The notes under the pieces were generated by a model that was given only the letters and a program-made list of their open reading frames with translations, made no database searches and was not told the origin of the DNA. Below are positions 19,560-50,445 of a stretch of 64,000 nt of DNA, in pieces. Each line of letters opens with the position of its first letter. Positions within the stretch are counted from its first letter, which is position 1. This DNA comes from Watersipora subatra (Eukaryota; Bryozoa; Gymnolaemata; Cheilostomatida; Watersiporidae). The position numbers and the translations under genes were made by a program. The DNA is taken from positions 5,642,001 through 5,706,000 of the forward strand of contig NC_088708.1 in assembly GCF_963576615.1 (NCBI RefSeq), written 5' to 3'.

Positions 19560-21094
19560 CTAGAAATTCCCCTGTCATACAGCCCACGACCAAAGTGATA
19601 TTGGAAAAAAAAGGATACTGCTGGTTGAGAAATGCAATATTAGCAGTCAAATAGCACTACAGTGCAATAGGATAACTGCAATAGTAGCTGTAATGTACTG
19701 GGTATTATTATGTACAACAAACAGCAATAATGAAAGGAAAAGATTATATGTTTATATCTCTCCTCTGCAATAGGAGAAATGCAATATTAGAAGCCAAATG
19801 GCAAGCTGCTGTGTAACATACACAGTTTGAAAGTTGGTTGTGTTGAATGCAGAATGGTTTTGACAGCGATCAGTAACCAAAGTGAAGAAATGGGTCATGA
19901 TTACAGAAACCATGGTTAAGTCGAGTGTGTGACATTTAAAGTTATCTACACTAGCAGAAGGAGAAAATTCTGTTATTTTGCAAAAAAAATTTGATTCCAG
20001 CTTAATTACAGCAGATTTTATGGTCAATAAACTGAATGCATGTTTACCAATAGTGCGAAAACATAGTTTTGAGAAAACTGGTGTTAAAGTTTGAGAAACG
20101 AAAACCAATGCACAATTTTGTTTACATTTCAAAACGTCGTAGCGACCAATATCAAGAAGCTGTGATATTCATCTAGATTTTTGTATTTATATGCAAAAGA
20201 TTATGCTAAATTTAAAAATCTAAACAGATTTTAGTTGGTTGTCATAGAAATAGCTGTATATCTATAAGAAAGTGAAGGCCTATAACTTAATTTTGCAGAT
20301 ATTACAAACAGTTTGGCAGTACCGCGATATTGGGCACAGCCGTAGCATCATCAACAAAATCTTTAGAAAAGTAATAACAGTAACATATTGCCCAACATCG
20401 GTCACTATATACTTCGATCTTGTAAATTCGAATGATCATTCTTGTAACTAAATCTTATAACAATCTTATAAAATCGAATAATTATTCTTATAATTAAGTA
20501 TTGTAATAATCTTATAAGAATCGTTAGAAAAATATTGTTATTTCCTTTACGTTCACTGCTTTGGACATCAGTTAGAATACCAAAGTACTCATTGTAAGTG
20601 TCCAAAATGTCAGTTACTTTGAAATCAACAAAAAAACCGATTACTTTTCAGTACTTCTACAATGCCATAGACTGGTGAAATGTGCACGTTTTTTTGTGAA
20701 ATGCGCACGACTTAATCGTTCTACTCTCTGTCGCACGGCCTTATCGGCGTTTCGTTGGCCGGTCTTAATTTTGATTAAAAAAGGCTTGTCAAGTTTTAAT
20801 GGCGATTTTAAGCCAAATTAATCTGTCCATTTATGTATAATCCGATCAGATGGGTAAGGTTTAGGATATTGTCTACAAATTTCAAAGACTTGGTAACATA
20901 TTTAAATAGGTTTATATGTGTTTTGTATCATTATTATACTAAATGACTCCATTGAAAATGGTTAAATTTGTTGATGAGATTTCGGTACAAGGGTTTGCGA
21001 CGGTGTGGATGAACAATTTTTGTGAGTTGTGTGCACATATGTATTTATCAAAAAGCTCCCAAACAATCGCTTCGCTCGTGTTTTGGTCATGGGA
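19560..21094 (-). mobile_element. Helentron-like non-autonomous element, copy 2 (full length)
   Basis: 1535 bp inserted in a satellite. Removing it rejoins the satellite unit exactly (CTATTAA plus ATACATG), so there is no target-site duplication. On the - strand it starts TCCCATGACC and ends TTTCTAG, with insertion between T residues. An inverted GGTCGTGGG lies 3'-subterminal while its partner CCCACGACC is terminal in the family. TC start, CTAG end, no duplication, T-T target and asymmetric inverted repeats fit published Helitron/Helentron descriptions. No Rep-helicase is encoded. Frames at 19752-20132 and 20405-20605 are non-coding. Confidence 0.55.
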
Positions 21095-25917: not shown

Positions 25918-26887
25918 TGCTCCCTCAAGCATTAGCATGTCTACAGCCTGGCGGTGGCGTATCTTGTCAAGTGATTTTGTAAGTACGTCGGCTACATTGT
26001 TAGCTGTTGCAACATGTCTGTATTCGACTGGTGGCTGATCTTTGATAAAAATTTAATGATTTCGTATGTCAATATGTTTCGTGCGACTGCTGGCTGCTTG
26101 TGTTGCTGGCCAGTGCGATAGTCCCTTGATTGTCACAGTAGACAGGAGTTTTACCGTTGAGCGTTTTACCAAGTGCTCCGAGAATGTTTCTCAAGTAAAG
26201 TGTTTCCTTGACAGCGTCTGTCAGTCCGAGATACTCGACTTCACATGACGAGAGAACCACTGTCGCTTGCTTACATGTATTCCAGCTAATTGGTGCTGTG
26301 CCTAACGTTGTGAGGTAACCACTTGCCAAGCGGCGGTCTTCAATGTCACTGGTCCAATCAGAGTCAGTAAACATGGTCAGCTCGTCTTTTGGTTTAGCTG
26401 AGTATTTCAAGATATAGTGTTTGGTTCCCTTCAAGTAGTGAAGAAGGCGTTTGGTGGCTTGTACGTATGTGGTGTTGGGTTTTTCGAGAAACTGAGAGAG
26501 CTTTGACACGGTCCAACTGATATCTGGTCGCGTACCAGTCATAAGATAGATGAAACATCCAGCGGCTTGACAATACGGAAACTGAGTGTCCTGATTGTTC
26601 TCTTGTTTTTCAGCGCTAGCTGTCAGAAGACGTGTGTTCGTGTCGGTGGGCGTTGCGGCTGGGTTACAGTCGGTCATATTGAATTTTGATAGTATGGCAT
26701 TGACATAACGTTCTTGGCTCATACAGTAGCTGCCATCAGGTTGATGTTGGAAGTCAATACCCAGAAACCATTTTAGTTGGCCTCTGTCATCCATCTCGAA
26801 AGCAGTGTTTAGCATTTCCTTTACAGTGTTGACTTGTTTTATGTCACTGCTAGCAGCTATGATGTCAGCAACCCGAAATAGCACGTA

Positions 26888-28004
26888 CAGTCAAACATGG
26901 ATAACTCGAACTTCACGGGACCGAGAAAAGTGTTCGAATTATTAGAGCGTTCAAGTTATCAGAGCACTGTCACAAGTCCATGTATTTACTTATTTATTAG
27001 TAGATACATGTACATATACAAACAATAATATAAATCAAAAGCACAAATGGCTTGTTTCAAATTAAATGCTTCTAATGTAAAGTTTAAAACGTTTTTATCA
27101 AAAAGTATAGAGATTTTTCTATCACTCGAGATTGGTTTGCTGTTTGAGGTGATGTTATTGCCAGGACGTTTTTTAGATTGACATTGGCAAAACTTGATCG
27201 TTGTTGAAATGCTCAAAAGAAAAGACATCTTTTTCTTTTGAGCGTTTAATCCACGATCAATTTTGCCGATTTTTCTTGAAGTTTATGCAAGGATTACCTT
27301 ACTTTACCTGGGATTGGTTAAGAGCAACACTCCGAGGTAGTTCAATTAGAAGTTTTACGAGGTTTTACGGTACATTGTATATCACTCACGCTTTTTGAAT
27401 GGATACTTATTGAATGTGCACACGTATTCTGTGTTTAGGTCAAACGATGAATAGTTTTTTTAGCAACAATTTTTTTACAACAATTTTTAAGACGTTTTAA
27501 ACATTCAACATTCCGACGTTGATTCAACACGGAACCAACGTCGGAAAACTATTCATCACAGGCTAGCCGGGTCACACACTCAAGGATTTTCGCCACGCAC
27601 ATACAAAACAAAAACAACATGCTGTTTTTGTTTTGTATGTGCGTGGCGAAAATCCTTGCGCGCGTGACCCGGCTAGCCCGTGCTATTCATCGTATAGCAG
27701 TATAAATCAAATTTCACCAAACCTTTAGAAAAGTCGTTGACAAAAATATTTTGCCGATGGTGGTAATAACGTCGCTTATGAATTACGAAAAGTTGAGATT
27801 TACCTCTATGGCTTGAAATAAAGTGATTTTCTAAAGCGATAGCAACCATTTCGGTAGCCGTTGGGCAAAAAACAGTTCGAATTAACAGTGTTGAGTTCAA
27901 GTTATATAGAGCCATTTATCATTGCGTGGGAACGGACCAAGCAAATCCATTCGAGTTAACCATGTGTTCGCTATATCCGAGGGCGAGTTATCCATGTTTC
28001 ACTG
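26888..28004. mobile_element. Pogo/Tigger-like TIR element inside copia RT
   Basis: The ends CAGTCAAACATGGATAACTC and, reversed, CAGTGAAACATGGATAACTC differ at one base. TA is present on both sides (26886-26887 and 28005-28006). Removing the element and one TA leaves the copia reading frame continuous across the site, which proves a simple insertion. CAGT-starting TIRs with TA targets are typical of pogo-like Tc1/mariner elements. No transposase domain was recognised in its 1117 bp. Confidence 0.8.
27561..27678. repeat. Long near-perfect palindrome
   Basis: Two arms of almost 60 bp meet near 27619. Left arm parts GGCTAGCCGGGTCAC and CGCCACGCACATACAAAAC pair with the right arm with only a few mismatches. 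Outer ATGAATAG/CTATTCAT sequences (about 27447 and 27684) extend the symmetry, suggesting a small fold-back element nested in the pogo-like one. Confidence 0.85.
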
Positions 28005-30953
28005 TATATATAATTTGTGTCGGTGTGTTTCTTGTATACACAGGCGTCCCTATTATATGATGTGAATCCGTTTGATTTTAGGAATTCTGTCAATAGTTGG
28101 TGCCAGTTCTTACCACTTTGTTTACCACAAGTCTATACAATGACTTGTTTAGTTTACATGTCAGGCGTGCGTTGTTTTTGTGTGTTACGTACCCTGGTGG
28201 TTGTTGGACATATATTTCCTCATCTATCGGCGCGTTCAGATATGCCCCCTTAACATCAAGTTGGTGTAGATGTAAGTTGGAGTTTGCGGCCAGCTGGAGA
28301 ATCGTATGAATAGATGTGAATCGAGTGGTTGGCGAGTATGTTTTGTCGAAGTCTTGGCCTGGTATTAGTGAATATCTTTTGGCTACATATCTAGCCTTGT
28401 ACTGAATTTGTCCATCAGCGCTTCCTTGTTTGTATGTATACACCCACTTCCTTTTAATCTCGTGCTAGTGAGGTGGTAGTTCTGTTACTTCCCAGGTGTG
28501 ATTGTCACGTAACGAATGAATTTCAGAACCAATTGCTGCCTGCCATTTGTCGGTGTTGTTGGCCTTTAATGCTTCATCATATGTTGTAGGTAGTGTGGGC
28601 TATGCAACACATGCGTGGTCGACGTTAGTCAGTACTTGATAGTCGTCAAGATACGACGGAGGGCGTCGAGCTCTCTGTGATCATGTTGATGTTGGCTCGG
28701 CGTTAGTGATGGTATCAACTGCACATTGTACTGGTGGTGGTATGGAAGTTGTGCTCTCATCATCTGAAAAAGAGTCAACTTCTGGTTCGTTGTGTATGTA
28801 CACGTTACGGGTAGTGATCACGTAGTTATTGGTGTTGAGAACTAAATAGCCATTGTTAGTCGGGTTGATACCTAGGTACTTTCCACGCTGTCCTCGAACA
28901 TCCAGTTTCTGTTTGTGGGTTTCGGTGTAGAACGTACAGTTTGAACCAAATTTGTGTAGGTTCCTTATATCTGGTTTTCTATCTGTGAATAGTGCGTAAG
29001 CAGTCAATTTTGACTTTTGCTGGAACGATAGGTTACGTAGGTGTTGAGCATAACGTATAGCAAATGTCCATTATGATTTGGGGAGCTTAGATTCGTTTAT
29101 GAGACATCTAGCCGTATCTAGTAGGCTATGCCAAGCTCTTACGGATTGGCCATTTTGGAACGGCGAATATGGAGTGGTTGTCGAGTGTTTTATACCATTG
29201 TTTCGTAGGATATTAGCGAATTCATTACTAGTGTATTCGCCACCATTGTCTCTGTGTATTTCTAGAATGTTTTCTATCGGAGCTGTGTCAGCAATGAATC
29301 ACTTGAGTGTGGCTGGCACTTCATCTTTAGATCGAATTGAGTATACAAAAATCATGCCCGAGTAGTCATCACAAAAGTTTACTATGTATCTGTGTCCATC
29401 ACGTGAAACGGGTTCTATCGGTCCACATACATCAGAGTTCACGTGTTCTAGCGGTTTTGTCGCACGAGGCAGTGTGTCGTCACATCATTTTGGACTTCGA
29501 CTCTGTTTTCCTTGCATGCGTTGCATATCTTTACTGCCTTTGTGTTGCGGACGGTCATGTTTTTAGTCACTGTCGGTAGTTTTATGATATCATTGTGATT
29601 CATGTGTCTGAGTGCTCGGTTCCATTGCTCAATTGTACGAACATTGAATGATGTGTGTACATTGCATGTCGGTAAAAAGTACAATTGTCCTTTCCGTGTA
29701 ACAGTGAATGTTTTATTTCTTGATATAAGACGTGTCTCTTTTTTTACAGAATGTCAGACTGGAACCTGTGTCGATAGCAGCGCGCACAGAGAACAGGCAC
29801 ATCGAAAATGATGGGGCTAGTAGTGCTTCAGTGAGCAGTATCCTTTTAGGATTACCGTCGGTGTCGTATACATGGAATTCAGCTGTTCCTCGTGCGGTTG
29901 CCATTTGATTACTTTGAGTACCGTCGGCAAGTTGAATATAATGGTTGTAGGCTTTAAAGTCCAGGTCGAATAAAATAAAGCGTTCAGCCTTGTTTACAAT
30001 GTGTGTAGTGGCACCGCAGTCCACTAGAAAAGAAGGGCTGTCGTCGGATTGTTTTTGATTGGCGTTACTCTGAGCAATTGTGGTGTCTATTGCGAATGAG
30101 TATGTTCCTTCAAATTCGGAAGCAACATTGTTGGCGTTTTACTGCTACTGATCTTTCTCTTAGCGAAGCATATACTCTCAACATGTCCAGATTTTTGGCA
30201 GAAGCTACAGCGTAATTTCGAACGTTGATGGCACATTTTTGTGCTGTGCCCAGTTTTTCCACACGAGAGACATACCTTACTGCTGCTAGGTTTTGCTTTT
30301 GCGTTGTAGTGACTGTTGTAATTGTTAGTATTACTGCGGTTAGCAGACAGCTTATACGTTTTAGAGCTCATGGCGGTTGTGTATGTGTAGGAGTGCGGAT
30401 AGCTTCTGTATTTGAGTGGTTTGTCAAAGTGGCCTTTGACTCAGTGAGTGTTTTGACAGAGTCGGTTTGAGTATGTACTACTACGAACGAATTAAACAAA
30501 GCAGGTAAACCCTTTAAGAGCATAGCTATAATTAAATTTTCTCATAATGTCTCACCTGCAGAGCGAAGACCAGTTGCGACTCTCTCCGCTCTTATTAGGT
30601 AGTCGGTGACATCTTCAGTTTCTTCCATTAATATTGTCGTTAGTTCTTCATATAGAATTATTACTCTGGGCTTCTCTGTACTGACATAATGTTTCCTTAA
30701 TGCTGCTAAAGCCTCATGTCCATTGTTAGAAGCGTCATTTACCATTAATTGCAGTGATCTGTCGCCCAAAACTTGGACAAGTTCAGCAAAGGTTCTTCTG
30801 TTTTTGACATTAAAGTCCTCATCATCTTCTACGCCAGTTGCTAGCGGGAGTATAGCTTTGTGTATTGAAATGTCCAAAGCGTATAGATAGTTAATAAAAT
30901 GCGTTTCCCATATGCTGTATATTTCTATATTACCATCGAAGTGCAATCTGTTC

Positions 30954-30967
30954 CTGGACCCATAACC
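30954..30967 (-). promoter_or_regulatory. Copia primer binding site
   Basis: Directly inside the 5' LTR the - strand reads GGTTATGGGTCCAG. This complements the anticodon region of initiator tRNA-Met (GGGCCCATAACC) rather than a tRNA 3' end, as known for Drosophila copia, which is primed by a half-tRNA. Confidence 0.7.
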
Positions 30968-31310
30968 TGTTGAGAGTTGTTTATGATGCGCACTGGCAGC
31001 CATTTATGCGTGGATGCCGCACTAGGACTAGTATAAACATTGGAGTTTACAGCAGCAATTTTATTATATGGAACGCTTGACGCTGCATCGAACAAAAGAG
31101 AATAAAAAAGGATATGACGTAATGTAATATAACAGCTATTGTATGTAGTATAACTAAATATGAGTTGTCATCCCATGGTACACATAACTTTCAGTTCGGT
31201 ATACATAATATTTAGTAAAACGCATTGACTAGCAAGTGTAACAGGATTATTGATATAAGTATTGATATATATATCAGATTGTGCTACATGGTAATGATTG
31301 TATGTCAACA
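30968..31310 (-). repeat. Copia 5' LTR
   Basis: 343 bp, the partner of 25567-25917, bounded by TGTTGAGAG and GTCAACA and followed by TTCCC at 31311-31315. The gag frame begins in this LTR (Met at 31003 on -) and reads through the LTR end and primer site. Confidence 0.95.
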
Positions 31311-31827
31311 TTCCCGTGCCTACAAAACAGTAATCTTATTCAAGTTACACGCTATATAAAAGATGTGCTGTTTTAAATTTTTAATACAATTATTATAACT
31401 ATGCACAGTCATGCAACACTAATTGTTCTCAAAATTAATATCTTGACATAGTCTTTTAGTATAAAAGTGCAGTACAGTATAAGAATCACAGGTGTCCTTT
31501 AGTGGGATATTGCCGAAGGCAAGGCCGAGCCGTAGGCTACACACACACAAAAACAACAAAGGTCAACGTAGTTATGAGCAAAAATAAAGTTTGCATCCAA
31601 ATATCTCACCAATTCGATGAGCAGCACACACAAATACTGAACCAATCGACAGGACCACCCATCATGTCAAAATATTCCAAGTCATGTCTTGTACAACACA
31701 CTTTACGGTTTCTCAAAACTTGTCCCTAAGTCCCTACTAACTTGAGACCGCCTGATTGTTGTTTTTAAAACGGTCGCTGCTAGCCTAGCGTCCTGCTTCA
31801 ACACCTCAGTAACTATCAGGGCATCCT

Positions 31828-32757
31828 TAAAGCACATAAATTACATAATTTTTTTATTGTATATTTCAATACATCAGAGTCTTGGCTTTCGAATGCGCTA
31901 TTGTTTGCCATGGTGAGACAGACATTGGTTGGTGTTTATAGGATCTCCCCAGAGCTCTACCTCGAAAAATTTTACTGGCATAGTCTCGAAAATTGTGACG
32001 TCACAATTCTCATATTCGTTGTTGTGTGCTCTTACTGCTTATTTATCAACTACGAAAGTGACGATAATGATGTTAGTGGCAGACGAAGGTAGGACAACTC
32101 CAGAGAATGAATAAAGATGATAAAGGAATCAGTGTCATTAGTTCTCCATGTAAATATCATTTCTATGGTAAGTACCTCAGACTCCAAGAACCATACTATA
32201 TTTTCTCGATGATATCATGCCCTAGCTCTTTATTTTTAATGCGATGTTATGTTGAGGGGCACGACTGAGACTAATTAATTTCAAGCATTGCGTGATCTCG
32301 CGAAAGTGCGATTGACATTTAGTCCTAAGGCCACGCAACCGCAGGTCATAATTCAATCGATGTGATTTCATTACTTTTATCAACGACTACATTTATTGAA
32401 GCATAATTAATTAACCCAGAACATGTGTTTGTATTGGTCGGGCGTTAGCACGATCGCGGGCATTGTTGATTATCTAGAATCTTAGTTTATTATTAGTGCT
32501 CTCCGGGTTTAACAGCACCGATTGTCGCAGAAAAACGCAGCCTCAATGGCAGCGAAAGGGATCAACGACCTAAGGCTAAATGAGAATTATGACGCCACAT
32601 TTTGAGTATCTGAACCAAGTGTTTTTTTTGCAGGATGTACTTTTGACACCCCGTTTTTCATAGTTCTATTATTCTTTGTGTATTGAACATAAGCTCATTC
32701 GAAAGCCAAGACTCTGATGCATTGAAATATATAATAAAAAAATTATGTAATTCATGG
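31828..32757. repeat. Inverted repeat pair, ~70-bp arms
   Basis: The segment around CAGAGTCTTGGCTTTCGAATG (31876-31896) reappears inverted around 32694-32714. The arms include the A/T-rich TTACATAATTTTTTTATTG. About 800 bp lie between. It may be another small element inside the P-like transposon or a secondary subterminal repeat. No gene was identified between the arms. Confidence 0.7.
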
Positions 32758-34590
32758 GCTTCAAGTGTTCCCGAACTTTTCAATTTTCTCTTGAGCTTGC
32801 AAAAACCAATCAAAATCGGGTTAACACTATTGTAAACAAAACCATGTGCTTTTCTACCCAAGCGCACGGGAAATACAATGCACGCTTGTTAGCATGGCTG
32901 AAGCAGTACTAAATCTAATTGCGCACCTGATGCTGAAGTAGTGAAATGGTATGATCTTATATTAATCAATGGTTCATATTATAAATTGGGTACTGTACAT
33001 CATGGTGATATGATTGAAATGGTTGCCTAAAGCGGTCCTCATTTATACATCAGGAACAAAGATGAGTGAGGTGATTGTGATCATTGTTTTGTATAAATAA
33101 TAGGAATTATAGCATGGATAGATGAATATTCTTTTGTTTTGGCTCTTTTTAAACAAGTATACATTGTATACCTTTGGTTCTATCCATAGATTGTTTTTGG
33201 ATTTATGCAAAAAAACATGCCACACTCTGCCTTTCAACCTTGACAATAGTTTCACAGATCCAGAACACCTTCAGCTGATAATTAACGCAGTGTGTAACCT
33301 TATAGAATGCAACAAGCAATGCTCTTCTGTATGTGAACTCGTATCTCTTTACCCAACATGCTCCAAATGTAGTCGTTATGAAACACAACAAAGATTTCAG
33401 GTGAAAAAGGAACACTACACCGATGCTCAGAGCCAGCTGTTAGATCAGCTTGATGCTATATCTCTTGAGTTTAGGGAGTATGTCTGGCAACAGTTGAAGC
33501 GAGAAGGTCTGAAACCAAATAATCATATGATGACAAGTGAGTATTCACCCATACTTATTTCTTGACGTTCAAAACCAATATCACAACCCAATGAGGTTGC
33601 CTTCTCTCACCTAACATGTTGCTAACAGCCACTGTAGGTGTAAACAAACATGAACATTATTAACATATTATGACCACATAATTCTTTTGATTTAGGACAA
33701 TGAGCACTATGCTAAGACTATTTATAAAGAGTCCAAATGCTTATAAGAACCTCAGAGGGAGCAAGATAATTGGTGTTGTACCCGCTGAGAGTACAGTAAT
33801 CAAACGTAAGAACCAGATAAAGCAAAGTCCAGGCATAAATATTGATTTATTAGCTTGGCTACGTGGAGAGGCCAACAAGAGAGGGTTGGCAGGTGTAGAA
33901 GGTCGACTAGCTGTTGACGAGATGTCAATATAGGTAAATTTTGTTTCATGGATGAACACTGAGATGCAATGGGACCTTTGAGACAGTTTTCTTAGTTTAT
34001 TAACTGCTTCTTCAAAAGATGGGCTAAATTTTATAACATCGACTCTCTGGGCTTATCATATTAGTGGTTTGTTTGGTAGAAAAAGTTAGAAGTGGCTCAT
34101 GTCGGCAGTGGTAGTGGCTTACATGAGTTCATTGGCTTTGAGGAGCTGGATCCAGTAATAACAGATCTGAGAGATGAGAAGGATAGTATGCTGACCAAAC
34201 ACGTCCTTCAGTTCCACTTCAACGGGCACGGTGGCTTCAGGTTTCCGTTTTGCCATGATACTGTAAAGGCCTATACAGCGGAGGAACTGAACCATCTTAT
34301 CCAAGATTTTATCTACTATCTATATGTCTATAACTTCAACGCAAGTAATTAATAGATAAAACATGACCCGTCTTTTGGTGGAGTTGTCTGTCCATGATAG
34401 TGAATCAACCAACAGAGCCCGAAGGAGATCTATCTGATAACTCTATAAAATGATAGTAAGATGGTTCAGACATTGATTTAAGTAATTAAACCATTATATT
34501 GTTGTTAGCATTGAAATAATCATGTTTTGCATTACAAAGTTTTGTGATTTGAAGCTACTGTATAACATAGTACATATACATTATCCAAAG

Positions 34591-34629
34591 CCAAGACACT
34601 TGGCCCCCAAAAGCCAAGTGTCTTGGCTA
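34591..34629. repeat. Perfect hairpin, 16-bp arms
   Basis: AGCCAAGACACTTGGC and GCCAAGTGTCTTGGCT are perfect reverse complements separated by about eight bases (CCCCAAAA), within the transposase region. Its role is unknown. Confidence 0.85.
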
Positions 34630-35971
34630 CATTATCCATCAAGAATTGAAAGGATCATCGATATAATAATCTATGGAGGGAATGAATTTAAACATCCTCC
34701 CCACTCAAAATAGAAATTAGACACCAGAAAGCCTGCGCTTTTATTTCCTTCTAGTAATGAACTTTTCACAAAACAGGTTGATTATGTTAATCTTGATGGA
34801 GCCGCTGTTAACAGAAAAGTTTTAAAATTCAACACTACACACCCAATCAGATCGTACACATATACTAGCCGCAACATGAATAATAGCAAATCTACAATCT
34901 CATGGACTGGAAATCAAACTTTTCGGTTGTTTAAAATAAGTTATTTATACAATATTTTAGTAAGATATTCCATGTCACATGATATGTTTTTCTTTGGACA
35001 TTGTGTGAAAAAGCTACAAAACTCTTTATATGGATGCAGGCTGGTGGGACCAAGAGCAAGATTAAGAGCAGTAACACTAAGTTAGTGTCATCTGTGACAA
35101 CATGTCCAATAGTACAATTATCTATTTTATTCAATGATGTTGTTTTATCTGTCGATTTAGGATATCCGGTGTGGGACCACTATCTTAATCTGTACAGATG
35201 GTCTAATTAAACTGAAGTCAGTATTGCCAGAGGATTAACTAATAAGCATCTCTTCCTCACGACTAGCCTAAAAATGAAGAATGACCTGGCTGAGGCTATG
35301 CTCGATAGGATTATGCTGAACAGTTTCAAGGTTGGTTTCACATTGCACAACAATCAACATGATTGGTAGCTATTTTTCCAAGTGGGTAGGCTTGATTACC
35401 ATCATAACAAAATTAACGTCAAGAATCATTCATATATCTCATCATTTTATATCACTGATTGACCAATAATCTATATTGCTGCTAAGACAAGCTCAATCCA
35501 GGGGTTCTTATTGAATATAATGCAGGTGACCTAAAACAGGCAGAGGCAGCTCAATGGGATTGTCATATCCTTATTGATATCACATCTTTGTTCATGGTCC
35601 CACGACCAAACGAGCGGGAGCGAAGTTTGAGAGTTTTTATGATAAATGCATGTACACACAACTTACGAAAATTATTCATCAACAATGAGACGAACCCTTG
35701 TTTTGAAATCTCATCAACAAATTTAACCATCGTTTTGTAGAGTCGTTAAAGTATAATAACGATACAAAACACATATAAGCCTATTTAAATATGTTACCAA
35801 GTCTTTGTAAACCGTCGGCATTATCTTAAAACTTACCCATCTGAACGAATTATACACAAGTAGTCAAATTAATTTGGCTGAAATTCTTCACAAAACACTT
35901 GACAAGCTTGGTTTAATAAAAGTTAAGACCGGAAATTGAAACGCCGAGCGACAGAGAATAGAACAATTAAG

Positions 35972-37559
35972 CAGGGATTACGTGTTTGTCACAATTTCCA
36001 TTTCCATAACATTTCCATAATTCATTTTCATATTATTTCCATTTCCATAACATTTCCATAATCTATTTCCATATTATTTCCATTTCCATAACATTTCCAT
36101 AATTCATTTCCATATGATTTCCATTTCCATAACATTTCCATAATTTATTTCCATTTCCATAACATTTTCATAATTTATTTCCATATTATTTCCATTTCCA
36201 TAACATTTCCATAATTCATTTCCATATTATTTCCATTTCCATAACATTTCCATAATTCATTTCCATATTATTTCCATTTCCATAACATTTCCATAATTTA
36301 TTTCCATATTATTTCTATTTCCATAATATTTCCATAATTCCTTTCCATATTATTTCTATTTCTATAACATTTCCATAAATCATTTCCATATTTTTTCCAT
36401 TTCCATAACATTTCCATAATTCATTTCCATATTTTTTCCATTTCCATAACATTTCCATATTTCTAAAATAAAATTTCCATATCGATTTCCATAAAAATTA
36501 TGGAAATATTTATGTTTATGGAAATGGAAAAGTAAACATTTCCATAATATGTTTAGCGATCCCTGGTGTGTACGTATGTGTGCGCGCTTGCGTGTCAAAT
36601 GAGCGTGTGTGTGCAATCGTCAACTCTTCCCGAATATGTGATTAATTTATACATAATATGAATATGATATTTGCTTGCTAATATACTTTATTTAGGGTCC
36701 AGGCAACATCAAAACTGTATGCTACCATTGCCTATAACTAAGCCAGAGACGATTTGAGATGTTTTGAGAGTTTCTTTCAGACTCCCTTAATAGTTTCTGT
36801 AATACCACTGATGTTAGCTGGGTTTGTGTGCTACCATTGTCCGTACATGTAGCCAAGTCCAGAGACAATTTGAGTTAATTTCTTCCAGACCACTTTAATA
36901 GTTTCTGTAATACCACGGATGTTAGCTGGGTTTGTGTGTTACCATTGTCTATACATGTAGCCGAGCAAGAGACAATTTGAGTTAGTTTCTTCCAGACCCC
37001 TTTAATAGTTTCTGTAATACCACTGATGTTAGCTGTTTGTGTATTACCATTGTCTATTCATGTAGCCTAGTCTATACAATATAACTCCCCTCTGTTTATA
37101 TCTTGGATTACGTGTATGTTACAATTTCCATAATTCAATTCTATGTTATTTCCATTTCCATAAAATTTCCATAATTCATTTCCATAATTTCCATATTATT
37201 TCCATTTCCATACCCTTTCCATAATTTATTTCCATTTCCATAATATTTCCATAATTCATTTCCATATTATTTCCATTTCCATAATTCATTTCCATATTTT
37301 TTTCCATTTCCATAACATTTCCATAATTTATTTCCATATTATTTCCATTTCCATAACATTTCCATAATTCATTTCCATATTTTTTCCATTTCCATAACAT
37401 TTCCATAATTCATTTCCATATTATTTCCATTTCCATAACATTTCCATATTTCTAAAATAAAATTTCCATATCCATTTCCATAAAATTATGGAAATATTTA
37501 TGTTTATGGAAATGGATATGGAAAAGTAAACATTTCCATAATATGTTTAGCGATCCCTG
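35972..37559. mobile_element. hAT-type non-autonomous element made of minisatellites
   Basis: It begins CAGGGAT and ends ATCCCTG, with identical 8-bp CAATTAAG duplications at 35964-35971 and 37560-37567, diagnostic of the hAT group. The interior holds two large arrays of TTTCCATTTCCATAACATTTCCATAATTCAT-like units (about 35996-36550 and 37120-37545) around a ~105-bp tandem repeat at about 36721-37075. The last 80 bp pair with themselves (TTCCATAAAATTATGGAA). No transposase is present. Confidence 0.85.
36721..37075. repeat. ~105-bp tandem repeat inside the hAT-type element
   Basis: Just over three units, each with TACCATTGTCTATACATGTAGCC, an AGAGACAATTTGAG segment and TTTCTGTAATACCACTGATG. It lies between the two TTCCAT-rich arrays. 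Confidence 0.8.
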
Positions 37560-38829
37560 CAATTAAGTCGTGCGCATTTCACGGAAAAATAACGTGCACA
37601 TTTCACCAGTCTATAGCATTGTCGAATTGCCCAAGGTTTCTGTAATTAACGTAGGAGTACTGAAATCATTTCATTTCAAGAAAGTTTCTTTTTTGCCGAT
37701 GTCAAAGTAACTGACATTCTAGACACTCTTGAGTGCTTTGGTATTCTAACTGATGTCCAACGCAGTGTAAGTAAAGGAAATGACGATGATTTCTTTTCCA
37801 ACGATCTTTGTGAGGTAATTACAATATTTAATTATAAGTTTGGATGACTACAGAACAATGACTACCTAGTACAGATTTTCTAAAAATCTATATAAATATC
37901 ACAACTTCTTGATATTGCTAGCTATGACGTTTTGAAATGTAAACAAAATTGTGCATTGGTTTTATATTATTACTATATTAATAATATTGGTTATTCTAAT
38001 AATATCAGTGCATTTTACTTCTAATATTGGCCAATATTGCATTTCTCCTATTGCAGGGGAGAGATATAAATATATAATCTTTTTCTTTGATTATTGCTCA
38101 TTTGTTGTATATAATAACACCCACATCCAGTACATTACAGCTACCATTGCAGTTATTCTATTGCACTGCAGTGCCATTTCACTGCTAATATTGCATTTCT
38201 TAACTACCAGTACCCTTTCTTTTTTTCAATATCACTTTGGTCGTGGGCTGTATGACAGTGGAATTTCTAGTATATTTTGTTTTAGATGTACAGAAGAATC
38301 CTTAGCAATACCACTAGTGTTGATGGCCTGATTGAACTGCTTGAAGTTAAATGTGATTTGATTGAAGTTTTCAATGATCAGAAACCAGTGAGCTCCCTTG
38401 GTGATCCGAGGATAAAGACAATACAAAGGGCATTAGATTACTTTAAGACATTACTGGATGCAAAGAGGTATGAAAGCTTCACCGCAGAATGCACATGGGA
38501 CATGGTAAATTGTCTAACCACTATTCTGGAACTTACCATACGGGTAACATCAAAGAAGGGCACACTTATAATTGGACTCATCAACTCGGATGTTATAGAG
38601 AACCATATACAGAAAGCCAATAGAAACCCAACATATAAGACCTGTTGCTATATACAGAACAGTGTTCTTTTGACACAACCAGTGTCTTTATCTAAAAAGC
38701 GAAATGCACATGTCAAGTTTCTGACATTTTAATAACTTTATGCATTCACCTTACAACACTGCCATGGTGACTTTATTATAAGTTGGTGTTTTGGTAAACC
38801 ATCAACCTACATAGATACAAATATTCATA

Positions 38830-41260
38830 TCACATTTCTTCACAAAATGGGCACTCCCACTCAGAATCGCCTATCCTTCGAAACTCTGATGGTTCCATCC
38901 CAGTGCATATTCTGTGGTACCAATCATCACAACTGTAACATACATGTTGATAAATAATAATAATAATAATGTAATCGTTATAAACTAAAATAAACAATGA
39001 TTCAAGGATTAGATTGTGGATACCATTCAAATTGACATTGTTGACATAATTAGCAACAGCCAGGAGGCCATTTTCCAAGATGAAAACAGATGATATATTA
39101 GCAAACCAGGACCAAAGCCCATATACTTGTTGTTTCGTATGATGTTTCTACTATAAACGCATGTTTGTTATTACTGCTTTGCAAGTTCTGTAGTACTTCA
39201 ATGATTAAGCACTTATTATTACATTTTACAAATGTTGGCCACTATGTGTCAACTGCTGAACATACGGTTAGCTTTGAAATACGTATGTTTGTCTCACCCA
39301 TCGCATTGAAGCCAATCAACATCACCACCATCGCTATCAACAACTGTTCCTGCACAAAGTATGCATGTATCATTCTCCACTGGCTCGAGAGCAGCAGGCT
39401 GGTCAGTTAATTCAACGGGAACAGCAGTCCTGCGCTCGACCTGCATTCGGCGGGTGAATTCCTTCTTCAGCTTTCTATTCACCATCTTCCTAGCCTCCCA
39501 AGTCCTTGTTCTTATTATCCTTAGCAATACCATAGCATACAACTCTACAACGATGATAACTGTGATGCCTGGATGGTCTGTACACAGCCTTCATTGGGTC
39601 AGGAGGTCAGTGGGGAAGTTGATGTTGCTGATTGACTGCTTTTTTCCTCCATGGCCAATTAAAAGCATCTTCAACTCAAAACATAGCATGGGCGTGGCGT
39701 TTTTGAGATGCACAGTGGGAACCATCCCCTCCCTCACTCTAGGGGAGCCATGTCAGGCTACACAATCAGACCTTTTTTAAAAACTATATTGGCTGACCGC
39801 CCCAACCATACACCCACCTTTTGTTGCCTGTGCACCAATAGAAACTTCTTCAAACAAACACTGCCATTGATGAGTAAGCGCCTGGCTATTCTCTGCAGCA
39901 CTGTTAGCATTAGATGGTGTTCTCCTGGTTAATCTTCTCTCTTCAGCGAACCATGGGGTGAGAAAACACCAAAGACTGAGGAAAAACCGGAATGCATCAT
40001 CGCTGATGTATGTCAGGGAGGAGCCCTCATTCTCTTTGGGCAGACAGACTTGAAGTGAGACTTGGTCATTAATATCTACCGGCAACCGATGTTTGTTAAC
40101 CTTTATTGTTCTCAGTGCTAGCAACATCTCTTTACACTGCTTGGCCTGTTCAATCTTACTGTAGGAAAGTCTCATTTGGCGTGCTTCTAGAGCTTTTGAA
40201 ACAAGTCTTATTGCTGACCCAGCTATATATCTAAAAATAGAAATGCTAGCATGATGTATTCTAGATTATGACTGGTCCTTTAGTTGTCATATACCCAGGC
40301 CCTGTAGTTGTCATATATCCAGGCCATATTATGTTAATTGTGATACAGAAACAGTCTGGTAATTGATTCCTTCCTGGTAAAGCAGAGATGAGGTTTTTAA
40401 ACTCCACTGATGAGCTTACACTAGCTTAAGTTTGTGCTGGTAGTGTAAATAGTGCAACTTAGCCCAACCATTAGGCCAAAAATTTGGTGATGGGTATTGG
40501 GCGATGGGTAGTGCAACTGTGCAAATAATGTATGTTCTTGCTCCATTCTACTGAACTTAACATAGAACACTGCGTACAATGACTAGTCTGTGCACAGGGC
40601 TATAGAGTCAAGCTTTGCATTCAATCGTTTAACAAACCTGATTCTGGCTCTGGCTGGATCACTGAGAGATAACACGTCACTACTAAATGTCTGTGCTCTG
40701 CTGTCTTTATTATTCTTATCTTCAGATACTTTTTTCAAACATTGTTTGAACACTGCAACAGCTTGTCTATCTGAACTGCCACGTGCAAGTAATCTTTTCC
40801 CTTCTAGGAAGACATTAGAGCTGGCAAACTGATACACCCTACAAGCAGTCATTGCTACAATCAAACAACTACATAAACACTATATTTGGCACCAACCAAC
40901 CCTCTGCCCTCATTATTATCTTACTCATGTTTTCACTTTGGATAAGGTCCATGGTATGTCATTGGTAAATTTCAAAGAGCTCTTCTCAATTTAACAGTAA
41001 GCGACTAAACATTGTCACTTTTGCCTTCCTGCATTTTCATGCATGCTGTTACCTTGACAAGAATGCTGTTCTTGGTATTTTCTGTGTCTGCACTATGTTC
41101 CAAATCATCAGAAGCGCAGCAACAACAAACTCTCCAAAGCTGTCTTTTGGTTCATCTATTTGGTTTACAGCAATAAACTCATCAACTTCCTGCTTCGTAA
41201 ATAGCCACTCTGTATCATCCTCGCGTGTCAATGAACTTGCCTCACTTGATCTATTTGTTT
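38830..41260 (-). CDS. PHD-finger protein, five exons, apparently intact, inside the P-like transposon
   Basis: Exons in coding order: about 41054-41260, 40638-40838, 39818-40230, 39298-39544 and 38830-38932. Every intron is GT-AG, all four joins match in phase, and the combined frame has no stop until TGA at 38830. The first exon's own start is not located; coding may extend to about 41330. The C-terminus is a complete C4HC3 PHD zinc finger split by the last intron: CILC, WLQCDG, then CDDWYHRICTGM and WECPFCE. The upstream ~270 residues are mostly helical and charged and I do not recognise them. PHD fingers usually bind histone H3 tails (family knowledge). The gene runs toward the transposase gene, with 97 bp between the two stops. 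A captured host gene is the alternative to a true transposon partner. Confidence 0.75.
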
Positions 41261-41748
41261 CCTGTGTGACAAAGTTATATGTAAGCTGTAGGTAAGATTT
41301 TATCTTCTCACGGAAACAAGCACGATGGTCAATATTAAAGGGACAGTATAGTTATCTGGAGATTCTGACCCCCCTCTATTTGGAATAGATGTGATTATTA
41401 TAGTTGTTTTCATCTGAAAGATAAGCTTTTTAGCTTTCCAATGATGTTTGTTCATCATTGTCAGTCAATAATTGTGCCCAGTAGCCCCATAACAAAACTC
41501 CATGCTCTGGGGCCAAAATGAAATCGCTGTAGGAATTGCCTTCTCCCTTACCAGAGTTTTTACATCCTCACCATAATATTGCAATTGGCCGCGCGGGGAG
41601 TGGTTAGGGTTTCAGGTTATCGTTTAGAAATTTGTTAACTCTCGCTGCCCAAATACCCCAGTCCCGGCAAAAGATATTACATATTGTCATTGTTTAACTA
41701 TCTTTGGTCTAATATCCGGCATTGGTGTTGTTTTTGTGAATGTGCGCG

Positions 41749-41805
41749 CGCGCGTGTGTAGCCTATGGCTCGGCTTCGGCAATATCCCACCAAAGGACAC
41801 TTGTG
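41749..41805 (-). repeat. Right terminal inverted repeat of the P-like transposon
   Basis: Reversed, it reads CACAAGTGTCCTTTGGTGGG, then ATATTGCCGAAG and an AGGCTACACAC segment, matching 31487-31548 apart from a small gap. It is followed by ACAAGAAT, the putative target duplicate. Confidence 0.8.
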
Positions 41806-41813
41806 ACAAGAAT

Positions 41814-43203: not shown

Positions 43204-44705
43204 TCGCGGCCGGGCCGTAGACTACGCACACAAAAAACAACAAAGGTTCACGTAGTTATGAGCAAAAACAAAAGTATCCACCTAAATATCTCACCAATCC
43301 GATGAGCAGTCCACACAAAAACTAAACCAATCGACAGAGCCACCCATCATGTCAAAAGATTCCATGTTTCAAGTCATGTCTTACACAACTCACCTTATGG
43401 TTTCTCAACACTTGTCTCAAAGCCCCTATTAATTTGAGACTGTCCGATCGCTGTTTTAGAAATGGTGGCCGCTAGCCTAACCCAGTGTCGTATAGTTTCA
43501 CAGAGTCCCGCGACTAACAGAAGCGTATACGGGAGCTCGCTCGATTCCAAACAAACAGGCCACGCCTACTATTTTTATATAAGTTATAATAGAGAGGTCG
43601 CAACATTAATCAACAAAAACTACTCCCATTAGCAGTCACTTTAAAATTGATTGTTGTATCATGAACCATTTGAAAGAAAACAAAATTTCCTACAAAAAGC
43701 TGCTAATAACGTTTTTGTAAAAACGTAAAGTAAATGCAAAAAAGAGCGGTATTGACAGCGAGGTATGAATATTCCATTAGAGATCAGTATGTCGATCCGG
43801 TTTGTTTGGAATCCGACGTTTTTGTTTCCGGTTTTGGTCGCGAGACTTTTTAAAGCTATATGACTCTGCCAGTACTGAGCGGTATAACTTCACAGAGTTT
43901 CGCTGCTAACGGATGCGCATATCGGAGCTCGCACGGCTCCAAACAAATAAGCCGCGCCCACTATTGTTTTATATAAGTTATAATGGAGAGGCCGCAACAC
44001 TAACCAACAAAAATTACTCCCATTGGAAGTCGCTATAAAATTGATTGTTGTATTATACACCATTTGAAAAAAGACAAAATTTTCTACAAGAAACTACTAG
44101 TGATTTTTTGTAATAACGTCAAGTAAATGCAAAAGAGTGAGATTTTGAGAGCGAGGTAAGAATATTCCATTAGAGATCAGTATGTCGATCGGGTTTGTTT
44201 GGAATCAAGCGTTTTTGTTTCCGGCTCTTGGTCACGGGACTCTGTGAAACTATACGGCTCTGGCCTAACCTAACGTCCTGGTTCAACATCTCACTAACTA
44301 TCGGGGCATTGTTAAAAGAGGGAATCAAAAAGTTCGGGAGCACTCAGCAATGCCCCGATAAGTTACTGAGATGTTGGATTAGGACGTTAGGTTAGGCTGA
44401 CGGCGACCATTTCTAAAACAGCGATCGGACAGTCTCAAATTAATAGAGACTTTGAGACAAGTTTTGAAAAAACCATAAGGTGAGTTTTGCAAGACATGAC
44501 TTGAAACTTGCAATATTTTGACATGATGGGTGGCTCTGTCGATTGGTTTAGTTTTTGTGTGTGCTGCTCATCGGATTGGTGAGATATTTGGGTGGATACT
44601 TTAGTTTTTGCTCATAACTACGTGGACCTGTGTCGTTTTTTTGTGGGTGTATACTACGGCCCGGCCTCAGCTTCGGCAATATCCCGCTAAAGGACACCTG
44701 TGTGC
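43204..44705. mobile_element. Fold-back derivative of the P-like transposon
   Basis: The left arm (43204-43475 plus 44264-44325) and right arm (about 44341-44705) are inverted copies of the first ~340 bp of the P-like element at 31487. They share GAGCAAAAA, CAATCGACAG, CCACCCATCATGTCAAAA and CCTAACGTCCTG segments. The right arm ends AAAGGACACCTGTG, the family TIR. The left arm lacks its last ~35 bp. There is no coding capacity, so it would need a transposase in trans. It is split by a nested element. Confidence 0.75.
43482..44263. mobile_element. Nested TIR element, tandem dimer, 6-bp duplication
   Basis: The ends CCAGTGTCGTATAGTTTCAC and, reversed, CCAGAGCCGTATAGTTTCAC are flanked by CCTAAC on both sides (43476-43481 and 44264-44269). 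Removing the element and one CCTAAC restores the sequence of the opposite arm of the host fold-back. The 782 bp consist of two tandem, ~380-bp diverged copies (second from about 43880). Confidence 0.8.
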
Positions 44706-46495: not shown

Positions 46496-46530
46496 AATTG
46501 TGCTTGCGTTGTGAAAATTAATTTCGAGGG

Positions 46531-49500
46531 ATGCCGAAATTTAACCCCCCTGATGGGTTCGACTTTTTCTCGGAAAAATGGGCAGAGTGGTCTAGAAGGT
46601 GGGGCAGATATCGTAATATCTCCAAACTAGACCAGGATGAACAAGAGGTCCAAGTTGACAGTTTGCTGTATTGTATGGGACCTTCTAGCGAAAGTATATT
46701 CAACAGCTTAGGCCTTTCAGATGACGATAAAAAGGACTATAAGAAAGTGCTAGAGGGATTCAACCAGTACTTCTCTCCTAAGAAGTACGTGATATTTGAA
46801 AGGGCGAAGTTTTTTAAGCGAGACCAAATGCCGGGTGAGTCAGTGGAACAGTATATACGTGCTCTTAATGAGCTCGCTGACAAGTGTGACTTTGGCGAAA
46901 AACGGTCAGAGCAGATACGAGACCGGCTGGTAGTCGGCATTACTGACACGGACTTGAGCAGAGAGATGCAGAAGATGGACATTGAGAAACTGACTGAAAG
47001 TACAGCTGTGGCAATGGCTAGACAGGCCGAGCAAGTCGATAGAAACGTACGTGAACTAAACGCAACTGCCGGTGACACCAAAGCAGTGGATGCAGTAAAG
47101 CGCGGTACCGATAATCGTGATACTCAGCAACGACCCAAACCTGATACTTATAGTGGTAGTAGCAAAACTCCAACGGGTCAAGCATCTGTGAGACAGTGTG
47201 GGCGATGTGGTCATAACTCCCACACATTCGGAAAATGTCCGGCCATGAATGCAACATGCCACAAATGCCACAAGCAGGAGCACTTTGCTCGTTTATGTAA
47301 ATCCAAACCTAGTGCAGTACATGCCTTGGAGGAACAGGATCAGCAGCCGAGTAGTAGTAGAGGTTCCTCTGATAATCCCGGACATTTTTTCCTCGGAGAA
47401 ATCAACGACCGGACCGCTGATGTTGAATGGACTAAGACAGTGAAAGTAGACAAAATACCCATACCTGTACGCTTCAAACTGGACTCAGGTGCAGATGTCT
47501 CCATTATTCCCCGTAAATTGTGTGGATCAGTGCAATTGAACTTACCAGACAAATCCTTGTTTGCCCCTAGTAATGCTGAAATACCTGTGTTAGGATGGTT
47601 TGAAACCACTTTGTATGTAAACAATCGCAAGGTAGTAGAGAAACTCTATGTGGTAGCGCATAACAAAGCTTTGCTTAGTAGAAAAGCATGTGTTGATCTA
47701 GGCTTGATTGCATGTAATACTAGCATTGACTATGTATCAGAACCGTGTTCTTTTGACAGGTTTAAATCTGAGTTCCCTAGTCTGTTTTCAGGGCTGGGTA
47801 GAATGAGTCAAGAGGTTGAGGTCAGGTTGAAACCGGGTTCCACTCCTTTTGCAATAAATGTGCCGCGGTCTGTCCCTTACCCTTTGTTAGACAGAGTAGA
47901 GTATGAGTTAAAGCAGATGGTTGATTGTGGAGTTATATTTTCAGTAAGTGAGCCCACGGATTGGTGCTCTCCGATGGTGGTAGTGCCCAAGCCCAACAAT
48001 CGAGTTCGCATCTGTGTAGACTATACACGACTAAACCTGGTAGTAAAAAGGGAAGTGTATCCTATGGCACATGTTGATGCTAGTTTGGCAAAGCTAGGTC
48101 GTGGGAAGGTATTCAGTAAATTGGATGCTAACTCCGGGTTTTATCAAATTCCATTGTCTAAGGAAAGCAAGCTGCTTACTACATTCCTGACCCCCTTTGG
48201 TAGGTTTGCGTATCATAGACTTCCTTTTGGGTTGTCCTCTAGTCCCGAGATCTACGCCAAAGTTGTTTCCCAGGTTCTTTCAGGTCTTGAAGGAGTTATT
48301 GTCCACATGGACGACGTCTGCATCTGGGGTTCCACCAGTGATGAACATGATAAGCGAGTGAGGTTGGTTCTGAAGCGTATGGCGGAGGCAGGAATGACGT
48401 TAAACAGTTCCAAATGTGAGTTTTCTAAGAGCTCCATAAAGTTCTTAGGTCACGTGATATCGGAAGAGGGCATCAGAGCTAGTCCTGAGACAATGCAAGG
48501 TATTCAGGATTTCACTACACCGAAAAATGTCTCAGATGTGCGTAGTTTTCTGGGCATGGCTAACCAGTTTAGCAAATTTACCCCAAACTTGGCAGAAATG
48601 TCCAGGCCCTTGAGAGATCTGTTGTGTAAGGGCTCTCAGTGGTTTTGGGGTGATTCCCAAAGTAAAGCCTTTGCCCGGATCAAGGGTGAACTGTCTAGAG
48701 AATTTGTTCTTGCAGCGTATGACCCTAAAGCTGAAACAATAGTACAATCTGATGCTTGTCGAAATGGCATCGGGGCTGCATTGCTCCAGATTCAGCCTGA
48801 TGGTACAAAACGAGTTGTAGCAACTGCCTCTCGTTCTTTATCCGATACTGAAAGACGATATGCCACAATAGAGCAGGAGGCACTTGGTGTAGTGTGGGCA
48901 TGTACCAAGTTCAAGGATTACATCACGGGTATGACAGTGCGAATTCAAACCGATCATAAGCCCCTTATCCCACTCCTTAGCACCATCGAGTTGGACAAGT
49001 TGACAGCACGCATTCAAAGATTTCGTATGCGTCTGATGAGGTTTTCGTACGTGATCGAGTACTTGGCAGGGAAAGACAACACCTTGGCAGATGCATTATC
49101 CCGTTCTCAAGCGTTGCCCACAGTTGACGAGGTGTGTTTTGTTGAAGAGGTGGAACTTGTTGCTAAACAAGCCCATCAGATGTTCGCTTCTAGTGGAAAA
49201 TTAGCTCAGTTGGCCAAGTTGCAAAAAGCAGATGAGGTTTTGTCCCAGGTCATACAGTTTGTTGAGACGTCATGGCCGGCTTACTTGACCAGCCAGGATG
49301 TCCTTCTCCGTCCCTACTTTGAGTCCAGAGCATGGTTGTCTATTCAAGATGGTTTGTTAGTCTTAGGAGATCGCATTGTTATCCCGCAAGTTGAAAGAGT
49401 TGGCGTGTTAAGGACCCTCCACCAAGGTCATTTGGGAGTCTCCAAGTGCCGCGCTAGAGCAAAGCAGGCTGTTTGGTGGCCCGGAATATCCCAACAGATC

Positions 49501-50445
49501 GCTGAGATGGTGCGTCAATGTAACACCTGCAGATTACATGCCAACACAGTCCAGGAGCCTTTGATGGTAGCTGAACTTCCCCAAAGACCGTGGGAGAAGT
49601 TAGGCAGTGACTTGTTTTACCACCAGAGCCGATGGTATCTTGTGCTAGTAGACTACTATTTTAGGTTTGTGGAGGTTGCCCCCCTGTCCGAACTCAGTAG
49701 TAGAGAAGTTGTGGATCACTTGCGTAGTATTTTTGCCAGACATGGTATCCCAGAGCTGTTGGTTTCAGACAATGGCCCCCAATATTCTAGTTCAGAGTTC
49801 AAGCATTTTGTTTCGTCTTACGGGTTTGTGCATGTTACTAGCTCGCCAAAACATCCCCAGGCAAACGGTGCTGCGGAGAGAGCAGTTCAAACGGTTAAGG
49901 CGCTGCTCAAGAAGGAATCTGATCCGTATCTGGCCTTGCTGGCATACCGGTCTTCACCCTTAGAAAATGGGATGTCCCCATCAGAGCTGTTAATGGGTAG
50001 AAAACTCAGGACCACAGTTCCCATCTTGTCTAAGTTGCTGGACCCTCAGACACCGCAGAGGTCTGTAGTCAGGGAAAGAGAGGAGTACAGAAGAAGTCAG
50101 ACAAAGATCAGTTTCGATCAGAGACATAAAGCAGTGCCGCTATCTCCCCTTAAGGTTGGAGACAGAGTGGTTATCAGAGACTTAAACAGAGAGGCCAAAG
50201 TATCTCAGGCGACTTCCCCTAGGTCCTATGTTCTCAGAGATGCTAACGGCATGGAGTTGAGGCGTAATCGTAAAAGTCTGGTGCAGGTAGTTCCGGATAG
50301 TGAGTTGAGTTCATCTAGTCAAGTAGTTGTTGAGCCTAGAGAGAGTCCCCAGGCAGGTTGTAATACACCCATCAAGTCAGATGTACCCCAGTACACGACA
50401 CGTTCTGGCCGCGAAGTAAAACCTCCAGTAAAACTTGACCTGTAG
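46531..50445 (+). CDS. Gypsy Gag-Pol polyprotein, single intact frame
   Basis: 1304 residues, start codon 53 bp after the LTR. Gag includes two CCHC zinc knuckles (residues about 223-236, CGRCGHNSHTFGKC, and 243-256, CHKCHKQEHFARLC). The protease has DSGAD at 318. RT has the first catalytic Asp in SKLDANSGF (about 532) and HMDD at 592-595, a variant of YMDD/YVDD. RNase H has Asp 741, Glu 783 and TDHK (808). Integrase has an HX2H plus CX2C zinc segment (964/967, 997/1000) and a D1027, D1080, E1116 triad (DX35E). All catalytic residues are present. Gag and Pol are fused without frameshift or stop, so their ratio must be set by processing or another route. Family knowledge: reverse transcription occurs in particles formed by Gag, and integration is by Pol. 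Confidence 0.97.
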   Translation: MPKFNPPDGFDFFSEKWAEWSRRWGRYRNISKLDQDEQEVQVDSLLYCMGPSSESIFNSLGLSDDDKKDYKKVLEGFNQYFSPKKYVIFERAKFFKRDQMPGESVEQYIRALNELADKCDFGEKRSEQIRDRLVVGITDTDLSREMQKMDIEKLTESTAVAMARQAEQVDRNVRELNATAGDTKAVDAVKRGTDNRDTQQRPKPDTYSGSSKTPTGQASVRQCGRCGHNSHTFGKCPAMNATCHKCHKQEHFARLCKSKPSAVHALEEQDQQPSSSRGSSDNPGHFFLGEINDRTADVEWTKTVKVDKIPIPVRFKLDSGADVSIIPRKLCGSVQLNLPDKSLFAPSNAEIPVLGWFETTLYVNNRKVVEKLYVVAHNKALLSRKACVDLGLIACNTSIDYVSEPCSFDRFKSEFPSLFSGLGRMSQEVEVRLKPGSTPFAINVPRSVPYPLLDRVEYELKQMVDCGVIFSVSEPTDWCSPMVVVPKPNNRVRICVDYTRLNLVVKREVYPMAHVDASLAKLGRGKVFSKLDANSGFYQIPLSKESKLLTTFLTPFGRFAYHRLPFGLSSSPEIYAKVVSQVLSGLEGVIVHMDDVCIWGSTSDEHDKRVRLVLKRMAEAGMTLNSSKCEFSKSSIKFLGHVISEEGIRASPETMQGIQDFTTPKNVSDVRSFLGMANQFSKFTPNLAEMSRPLRDLLCKGSQWFWGDSQSKAFARIKGELSREFVLAAYDPKAETIVQSDACRNGIGAALLQIQPDGTKRVVATASRSLSDTERRYATIEQEALGVVWACTKFKDYITGMTVRIQTDHKPLIPLLSTIELDKLTARIQRFRMRLMRFSYVIEYLAGKDNTLADALSRSQALPTVDEVCFVEEVELVAKQAHQMFASSGKLAQLAKLQKADEVLSQVIQFVETSWPAYLTSQDVLLRPYFESRAWLSIQDGLLVLGDRIVIPQVERVGVLRTLHQGHLGVSKCRARAKQAVWWPGISQQIAEMVRQCNTCRLHANTVQEPLMVAELPQRPWEKLGSDLFYHQSRWYLVLVDYYFRFVEVAPLSELSSREVVDHLRSIFARHGIPELLVSDNGPQYSSSEFKHFVSSYGFVHVTSSPKHPQANGAAERAVQTVKALLKKESDPYLALLAYRSSPLENGMSPSELLMGRKLRTTVPILSKLLDPQTPQRSVVREREEYRRSQTKISFDQRHKAVPLSPLKVGDRVVIRDLNREAKVSQATSPRSYVLRDANGMELRRNRKSLVQVVPDSELSSSSQVVVEPRESPQAGCNTPIKSDVPQYTTRSGREVKPPVKLDL

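Follow-up and report, generated by a model that had tools for sequence, protein, structure and literature searches.

The P element is the textbook example of a cut-and-paste transposon with one protein. According to PMC7776569, a THAP-domain transposase is the only protein that known P elements encode, and members of the P superfamily, such as the Drosophila P element and the zebrafish P-like elements, have a P-type RNase H transposase, terminal inverted repeats (TIRs), 8-bp target duplications and short, internally deleted copies. The element described here, from the bryozoan Watersipora subatra, resembles them in each of these latter features, and its long inverted ends recall those of Galileo. 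It differs from the P elements of PMC7776569 in that a second, convergent gene is present and no THAP domain was found. The fuller members are about 12 kb long, with TIRs of 0.3-0.44 kb, 8-bp duplications and two genes lying tail to tail. The first gene encodes what its motifs and domain matches identify as a P-type DD(E) transposase, and the second is predicted to encode a Pif1-type helicase linked by a middle domain to a C-terminal PHD finger. The best explanation of the locus as a whole, which we consider very probable, is that it holds an internally deleted, non-autonomous copy of this P-superfamily cut-and-paste transposon, and its layout and family assignment are close to certain.

The copy occupies positions 31487-41805 of the window, that is, of the whole stretch of 64,000 nucleotides analyzed (contig NC_088708.1, 5,642,001 to 5,706,000), and has inverted ends, a target duplication, transposase exons on the plus strand and a five-exon PHD gene on the minus strand. 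TIRs of about 60 bp and a near-perfect 8-bp flanking duplication had been proposed in the initial annotation, and both were borne out. Positions 31486-31544 and 41754-41806 are 84.7% identical over 59 columns (E 2e-12), CACARGTGTCCTTT is exact at both tips (with up to two mismatches it occurs 5 times in the window versus 0.95 expected), and ATAAGAAT (31479-31486) and ACAAGAAT (41806-41813) are identical at 7 of 8 positions. The left TIR (31487-31544, plus strand) is the outer part of a longer arm (31487-31824) that is homologous to the 443-bp TIR of the copy at C7:48266801 (C1 to C11 are contig labels of the 784-Mb genome searched). The right TIR lies at 41754-41805 on the minus strand, and beyond 41727 the copy has lost its helicase exons together with the remainder of its right arm. 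Across the genome, the TIR tip with at most one mismatch occurs 575 + 530 times, versus 277 + 191 for a control pattern, and many of the 100 places listed are plus/minus pairs 0.1-1 kb apart, which points to short non-autonomous copies.

Two nested insertions interrupt the window copy, and other copies of its family, hereafter family 1, have empty sites for both. The first (31826-32763), with 80-bp inverted ends (31826-31905 and 32686-32765, 90% identical), is missing from the C5, C7 and C9 copies, and the second (35599-38269), which interrupts the transposase gene, has empty sites in the C7, C5:2226k and C9 copies. The second contains 41-bp and 108-bp minisatellites and has relatives at 19559-21094 and 882-1265 of the window; it may be a non-autonomous Helitron-like element, judging by its ends and by the absence of a clear duplication. 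The window also holds a separate non-autonomous relative at 43208-44702, both ends of which match the element's left arm in opposite orientation, a 1307-aa open frame (46522-50442) that on reading resembles an intact Gypsy-type retrotransposon polyprotein, and broken minus-strand frames (26072-31003) that on reading resemble a Copia-type retrotransposon. The segment 41334-41648 is single copy in the window, and its homologues in the C5 and C7 family-1 copies are followed by an inverted copy of the same segment.

The P-type transposase that had been proposed for the plus strand stands, by way of homology. Single transposase exons of the window gave no significant transposase match in Pfam, and the assignment follows from their 56-90% identity to a fuller copy, the joined exons of which match TNP-like_RNaseH_N (E 1.3e-12). 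The first coding exon (33214-33538) is a remnant, as about 600 bp of upstream coding sequence, found in other family-1 copies when the copies were compared, has no counterpart in the window and is gone at 33210-33213. The exon at 33697-33933 contains the first catalytic Asp (VDEMSI) followed by a TAG stop, and the exon at 34080-34340 covers part of the RNase H region, both by motif reading and homology. The exons within 34777-35330 (34777-34912, about 34999-35080, and 35160-35330) contain the second catalytic Asp (NLDGA) and the LTNKHLFLTTSLKM motif, and the last exon (38286-38732) has the NSDVIEN motif with the proposed catalytic Glu. A homologue of the last exon, from the C7 copy at 34.71 Mb, matches TNP-like_RNaseH_C at E 3.5e-4, which is below the Pfam cut-off, and the catalytic D, D and E residues were assigned by eye. 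The sequence ILTDVQRSV (37.66-37.82 kb) might be taken for a transposase exon but lies inside the nested insertion, and this reading was ruled out. Given its internal deletion and two nested insertions, the window copy cannot count as full-length, and with the helicase exons and most of the right arm lost and a stop after VDEMSI, it cannot be autonomous.

The convergent gene on the minus strand was likewise as first described. Its five exons correspond exactly to residues 2-391 of an annotated W. subatra protein of 391 aa ('uncharacterized protein isoform X1'), and its C-terminus is a complete C4HC3 PHD finger (Pfam 3.5e-7). Exon 1 (41053-41261) is the one that Pif1 helicase exons precede in fuller copies. 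Exons 2 to 5 were placed by translation match to the annotated protein: exon 2 at 40638-40838, exon 3 at 39818-40230 with the middle domain (RYIAG...), exon 4 at 39298-39544 with the first half of the PHD finger, and exon 5 at 38830-38932 with its second half and the stop codon. The nearest solved structures to the PHD finger are those of KDM5B (E 1.3e-7) and KDM5A (E 9.4e-7), which we take to be third PHD fingers that bind H3K4me3. The precomputed Pfam list of the annotated isoform X2 (P0002) includes PF27108, which our Pfam scan did not recover.

When the genome was searched with the PHD protein, 29 matches were found at 11 loci, namely seven of family 1 and four weaker ones that were later assigned to family 3. 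The family-1 loci are the window, C5:34868k and its duplicate C5:34982k, C7:34713k, C7:48272k, C5:2227k and C9:3424k, the last two being last-exon fragments only, and the parts of the C9 locus are rearranged. This number of loci rules out a single-copy host gene, and transposase sequence is present at all seven. Beyond the point that corresponds to the right end of the window copy, two C7 copies align with each other for kilobases further, and this extension has minus-strand frames with Pif1 motifs, among them VSGTGKSLL, DVIIIDECSML and TVHRAQGLTL. The copy at C7:48266801-48279037 (12.2 kb) has 443-bp TIRs that are 96.6% identical, CCTAAACT on both sides as a perfect 8-bp duplication, and a transposase gene that meets, tail to tail, a PHD gene preceded by Pif1-helicase exons. 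It is not intact: of the PHD gene, exon 1 is missing and exon 3 has lost its start. The C7:34713k copy has the helicase and all five PHD-gene exons, with stops and frameshifts, and the fact that no family-1 copy that we read is intact counts against our explanation. Joined family-1 exons match PIF1 (3.8e-19) and Pif1_2B (2.9e-5) in Pfam. At the end of the last helicase exon of the C7 copies stands CAG/GTAGGA, a plausible splice donor that could pair with the acceptor of PHD exon 1 as seen in the window, and we infer that the two would be spliced together. Since helicase exons lead into the PHD gene in other copies, the transposon would encode a Pif1-PHD protein, of which the 'PHD gene' supplies the C-terminal part. 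The suggestion that the PHD protein is a second gene of this transposon family thus holds as regards membership in the family; that it is a gene on its own does not, the helicase exons having been lost from the window copy, and the annotated 'uncharacterized protein' would be a fragment of a transposon gene. Five further places with a family-1-like helicase also count against our explanation, though they may be deletion derivatives: genome searches gave no PHD or transposase match at C1:9646867, C3:45252992, C3:45244978 and C9:37098120, and a transposase match without a PHD match at C11:13938827.

The pairing of the two genes extends beyond family 1. Searches of the genome with the helicase and transposase led to family 2, in which the copy at C2:40988206-41000096 has 323-bp TIRs (97.8% identical) and GTACTGCC on both sides as a perfect 8-bp duplication. 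In this copy and in that at C7:48266801-48279037, both genes lie within the inverted ends, which supports the initial annotation in assigning the PHD gene to the transposon family. Copy B of family 2 (C5:25257914-25267688) has 328-bp TIRs (98.5%) and no matching target duplication at its ends. In matching pieces, families 1 and 2 are 36-51% identical in the transposase and 36-42% in the helicase, with the same layout, and the intron in the PHD finger is at the identical codon and phase in both; the stop codons of the transposase and PHD genes are about 30 bp apart in family 2 and about 100 bp apart in the window. Family 2 matches TNP-like_RNaseH_N (5e-12), PIF1 (4.7e-28), Pif1_2B (4.3e-6) and PHD (2.5e-7), its C-terminal RNase H half (0.062) falling below the Pfam cut-off, and the pieces compared have no stops and no indels between the two copies. 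Order, strand and splice signals make it probable that splicing joins the helicase and PHD finger in a single protein in families 1 and 2 alike.

Family 3, more diverged than family 2, comprises four closely similar loci on C4, C9, C10 and C5, and at all four the last exon of a P-type transposase lies tail to tail with a PHD exon. This transposase exon is 25% identical to that of family 2 (E 1e-13) and has no Pfam match of its own, C-terminal RNase H included. At the C10 locus, Pif1 motifs, the middle domain and the PHD finger can all be read, and a single open frame of 474 aa covers the middle domain together with the last helicase motif; the Pfam matches of the family are PIF1 2.2e-9, PHD 1.9e-6 and, for Pif1_2B, 23.7 bits versus a cut-off of 23.9. 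A search with family 3 found one outside protein, P0082, in which the last helicase motif (Pif1 motif VI) is joined to the family-3 middle domain (33% over 491 columns), with no PHD finger in the sequence examined. P0082 thus indicates that the fusion of helicase and middle domain exists elsewhere and, coming from an outside source, that the lineage extends beyond this genome. A search of viral contigs with P0082 led nowhere, and with the joined helicase-PHD sequence as query, 79 Pif1 proteins were retrieved from the 8000 candidates with most words in common, the PHD accession PF00628 being given for none of them.

These families bear on two other readings of the helicase. Pif1 helicases are typical of Helitrons, and with 101 Pif1 matches in the genome, a Helitron or other mobile element might have inserted beside the PHD gene and made a fusion only apparent. 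We regard this as extremely improbable, because one open frame runs through helicase and middle domain both in family 3 and in P0082, the order is identical in three families, and both genes lie within inverted ends in two. The recurrence in three families likewise rules out the helicase as a chance neighbor. Alternatively, a P element may have captured a host gene for a Pif1-PHD or PHD protein and carried it as passive cargo. Transposons do pick up genes, most of the P-type transposase matches compared here are without a helicase neighbor, and the PHD genes of old copies drift. Passive cargo should, however, be lost over divergence such as that of these families, whose transposase pieces are only 25-51% identical and which nonetheless keep both genes in identical tail-to-tail order. 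Families 1 and 2 also have the PHD intron in common, and no host homologue was found either in the genome search with the PHD protein or in a protein search across other species with the PHD half as query, where the only two matches were the window's own gene. Cargo capture is therefore improbable, though less so than insertion of a separate helicase, and we favor a two-gene transposon, the layout of which recurs in three diverged families and is enclosed by inverted ends and perfect 8-bp duplications in two.

As for superfamily membership, the TIRs and 8-bp duplications are P traits, and the P-type split RNase H is represented by its N-terminal half above the Pfam cut-off in families 1 and 2 and by its C-terminal half below it. 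The GTP-binding insertion domain gave no Pfam match at E up to 1, and the region is there by position, as small exons. For families 1 and 2, the 5' regions contain no C2CH pattern, and Pfam scans gave no THAP domain. The P superfamily is usually placed by its RNase H core, and we therefore keep the element within it. The partner gene has a PIF1 core in families 1 to 3 and a C4HC3 PHD finger above cut-off in all three, with Pif1_2B exceeding its cut-off in the first two. The genome has at least 175 matches to the P-type RNase H domain (PF21787), and 4 of the 150 listed have one of the best 29 of the 101 helicase matches no more than 50 kb away, in none of the 4 cases tail to tail, a comparison that helicases too diverged for our helicase search would escape. 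As the 150 include no transposase of families 1-3, the comparison is a control on other P elements and not a rate, and the helicase looks like a trait of one lineage. Eighteen of the 150, many with stops, form a P-derived cluster on C8 (7.8-19.0 Mb).

Did the PHD gene of the window become a host gene after the element died? It is annotated as a gene with two isoforms, and the splice sites and frame of its five exons are intact although the transposase of the same copy is broken. Window-specific changes number 10 synonymous to 17 non-synonymous, versus 9 to 48 in three other copies together (Fisher p 0.049), and the window branch looks slightly less relaxed than the other family-1 PHD genes. 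This p value is marginal, the window-specific changes may include some from the active phase of the lineage, and dN/dS between the window and other copies is 0.70-1.13, which is not low. We rejected domestication, for which p 0.049 was the only statistical sign, and consider it very unlikely, if somewhat less so than an inserted helicase. Across the family-1 PHD genes, dN/dS is 0.70-1.92, which gives no sign of constraint after insertion. Between the family-2 copies, dN/dS is 0.42 for the transposase and 0.83 and 0.88 for the helicase-PHD gene (each of the latter with one misframed fragment), with too little divergence to tell. Long-term function is argued instead from the fact that families 25-51% identical have the layout in common and their motifs intact.

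What might a P element do with such a protein? The P-type transposase would excise and insert the element by cut and paste, and the Pif1-PHD protein, working together with it, probably takes part in transposition. One possibility, which we put forward tentatively and hold somewhat less likely to be right than wrong, is that the PHD finger docks the complex on histone H3 of active chromatin. Such docking would fit the preference of P elements for promoters and replication origins, which PMC7776569 explains tentatively by open chromatin. The Pif1 helicase may open strands or aid in copying the element back into the excision (donor) gap; the same text describes a host Bloom-type helicase that acts on P-induced breaks.

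Each half of this arrangement has precedents in other transposons. Helitrons likewise carry a Pif1-type helicase and, to our knowledge, have no inverted ends or target duplications. They differ in their HUH nuclease, as given in PMC12730594; here inverted ends and duplications are present, and Pfam scans of the pieces examined from families 1 to 3 gave no HUH nuclease match. KolobokH and AcademH are DDD/E transposon lineages with an added helicase, as here (PMC9587614, PMC10045372). According to the excerpts of these two sources, which do not mention a PHD finger for either lineage, they belong to other superfamilies with other duplication lengths, and the KolobokH helicase is of the RecQ type. 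RAG transposons (TransibSU, RAG1-like and RAG2-like) pair a transposase with an oppositely oriented PHD-finger partner gene (PMC4411706). They differ in their Transib/RAG1 transposase, 5-bp duplication and Kelch-PHD partner, in place of which our element has a P-type transposase, an 8-bp duplication and a Pif1-PHD partner, and that source words the gene orientation as head-to-head, whereas here it is tail to tail. Thus, DDD/E transposons with a helicase and the pairing of a transposase with a PHD protein are already known, and a P-superfamily element with Pif1, PHD or both was not found in the open-licence PMC literature, as far as its accessible text goes. The main doubt on novelty is Repbase, which lies outside that scope and may hold such families. 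With a P lineage that carries a Pif1 helicase and PHD finger of its own, the role of a transposon-borne chromatin reader and helicase in target choice and copy-number gain would become testable. More speculatively still than the docking of the PHD finger, the families described here may represent an old, separate P lineage in which the transposase depends on a chromatin-reading Pif1-PHD helicase, an obligate partner that picks active or replicating chromatin and helps to copy the element back into the donor gap, a partnership like that of RAG1 and RAG2 that would have been reached independently.
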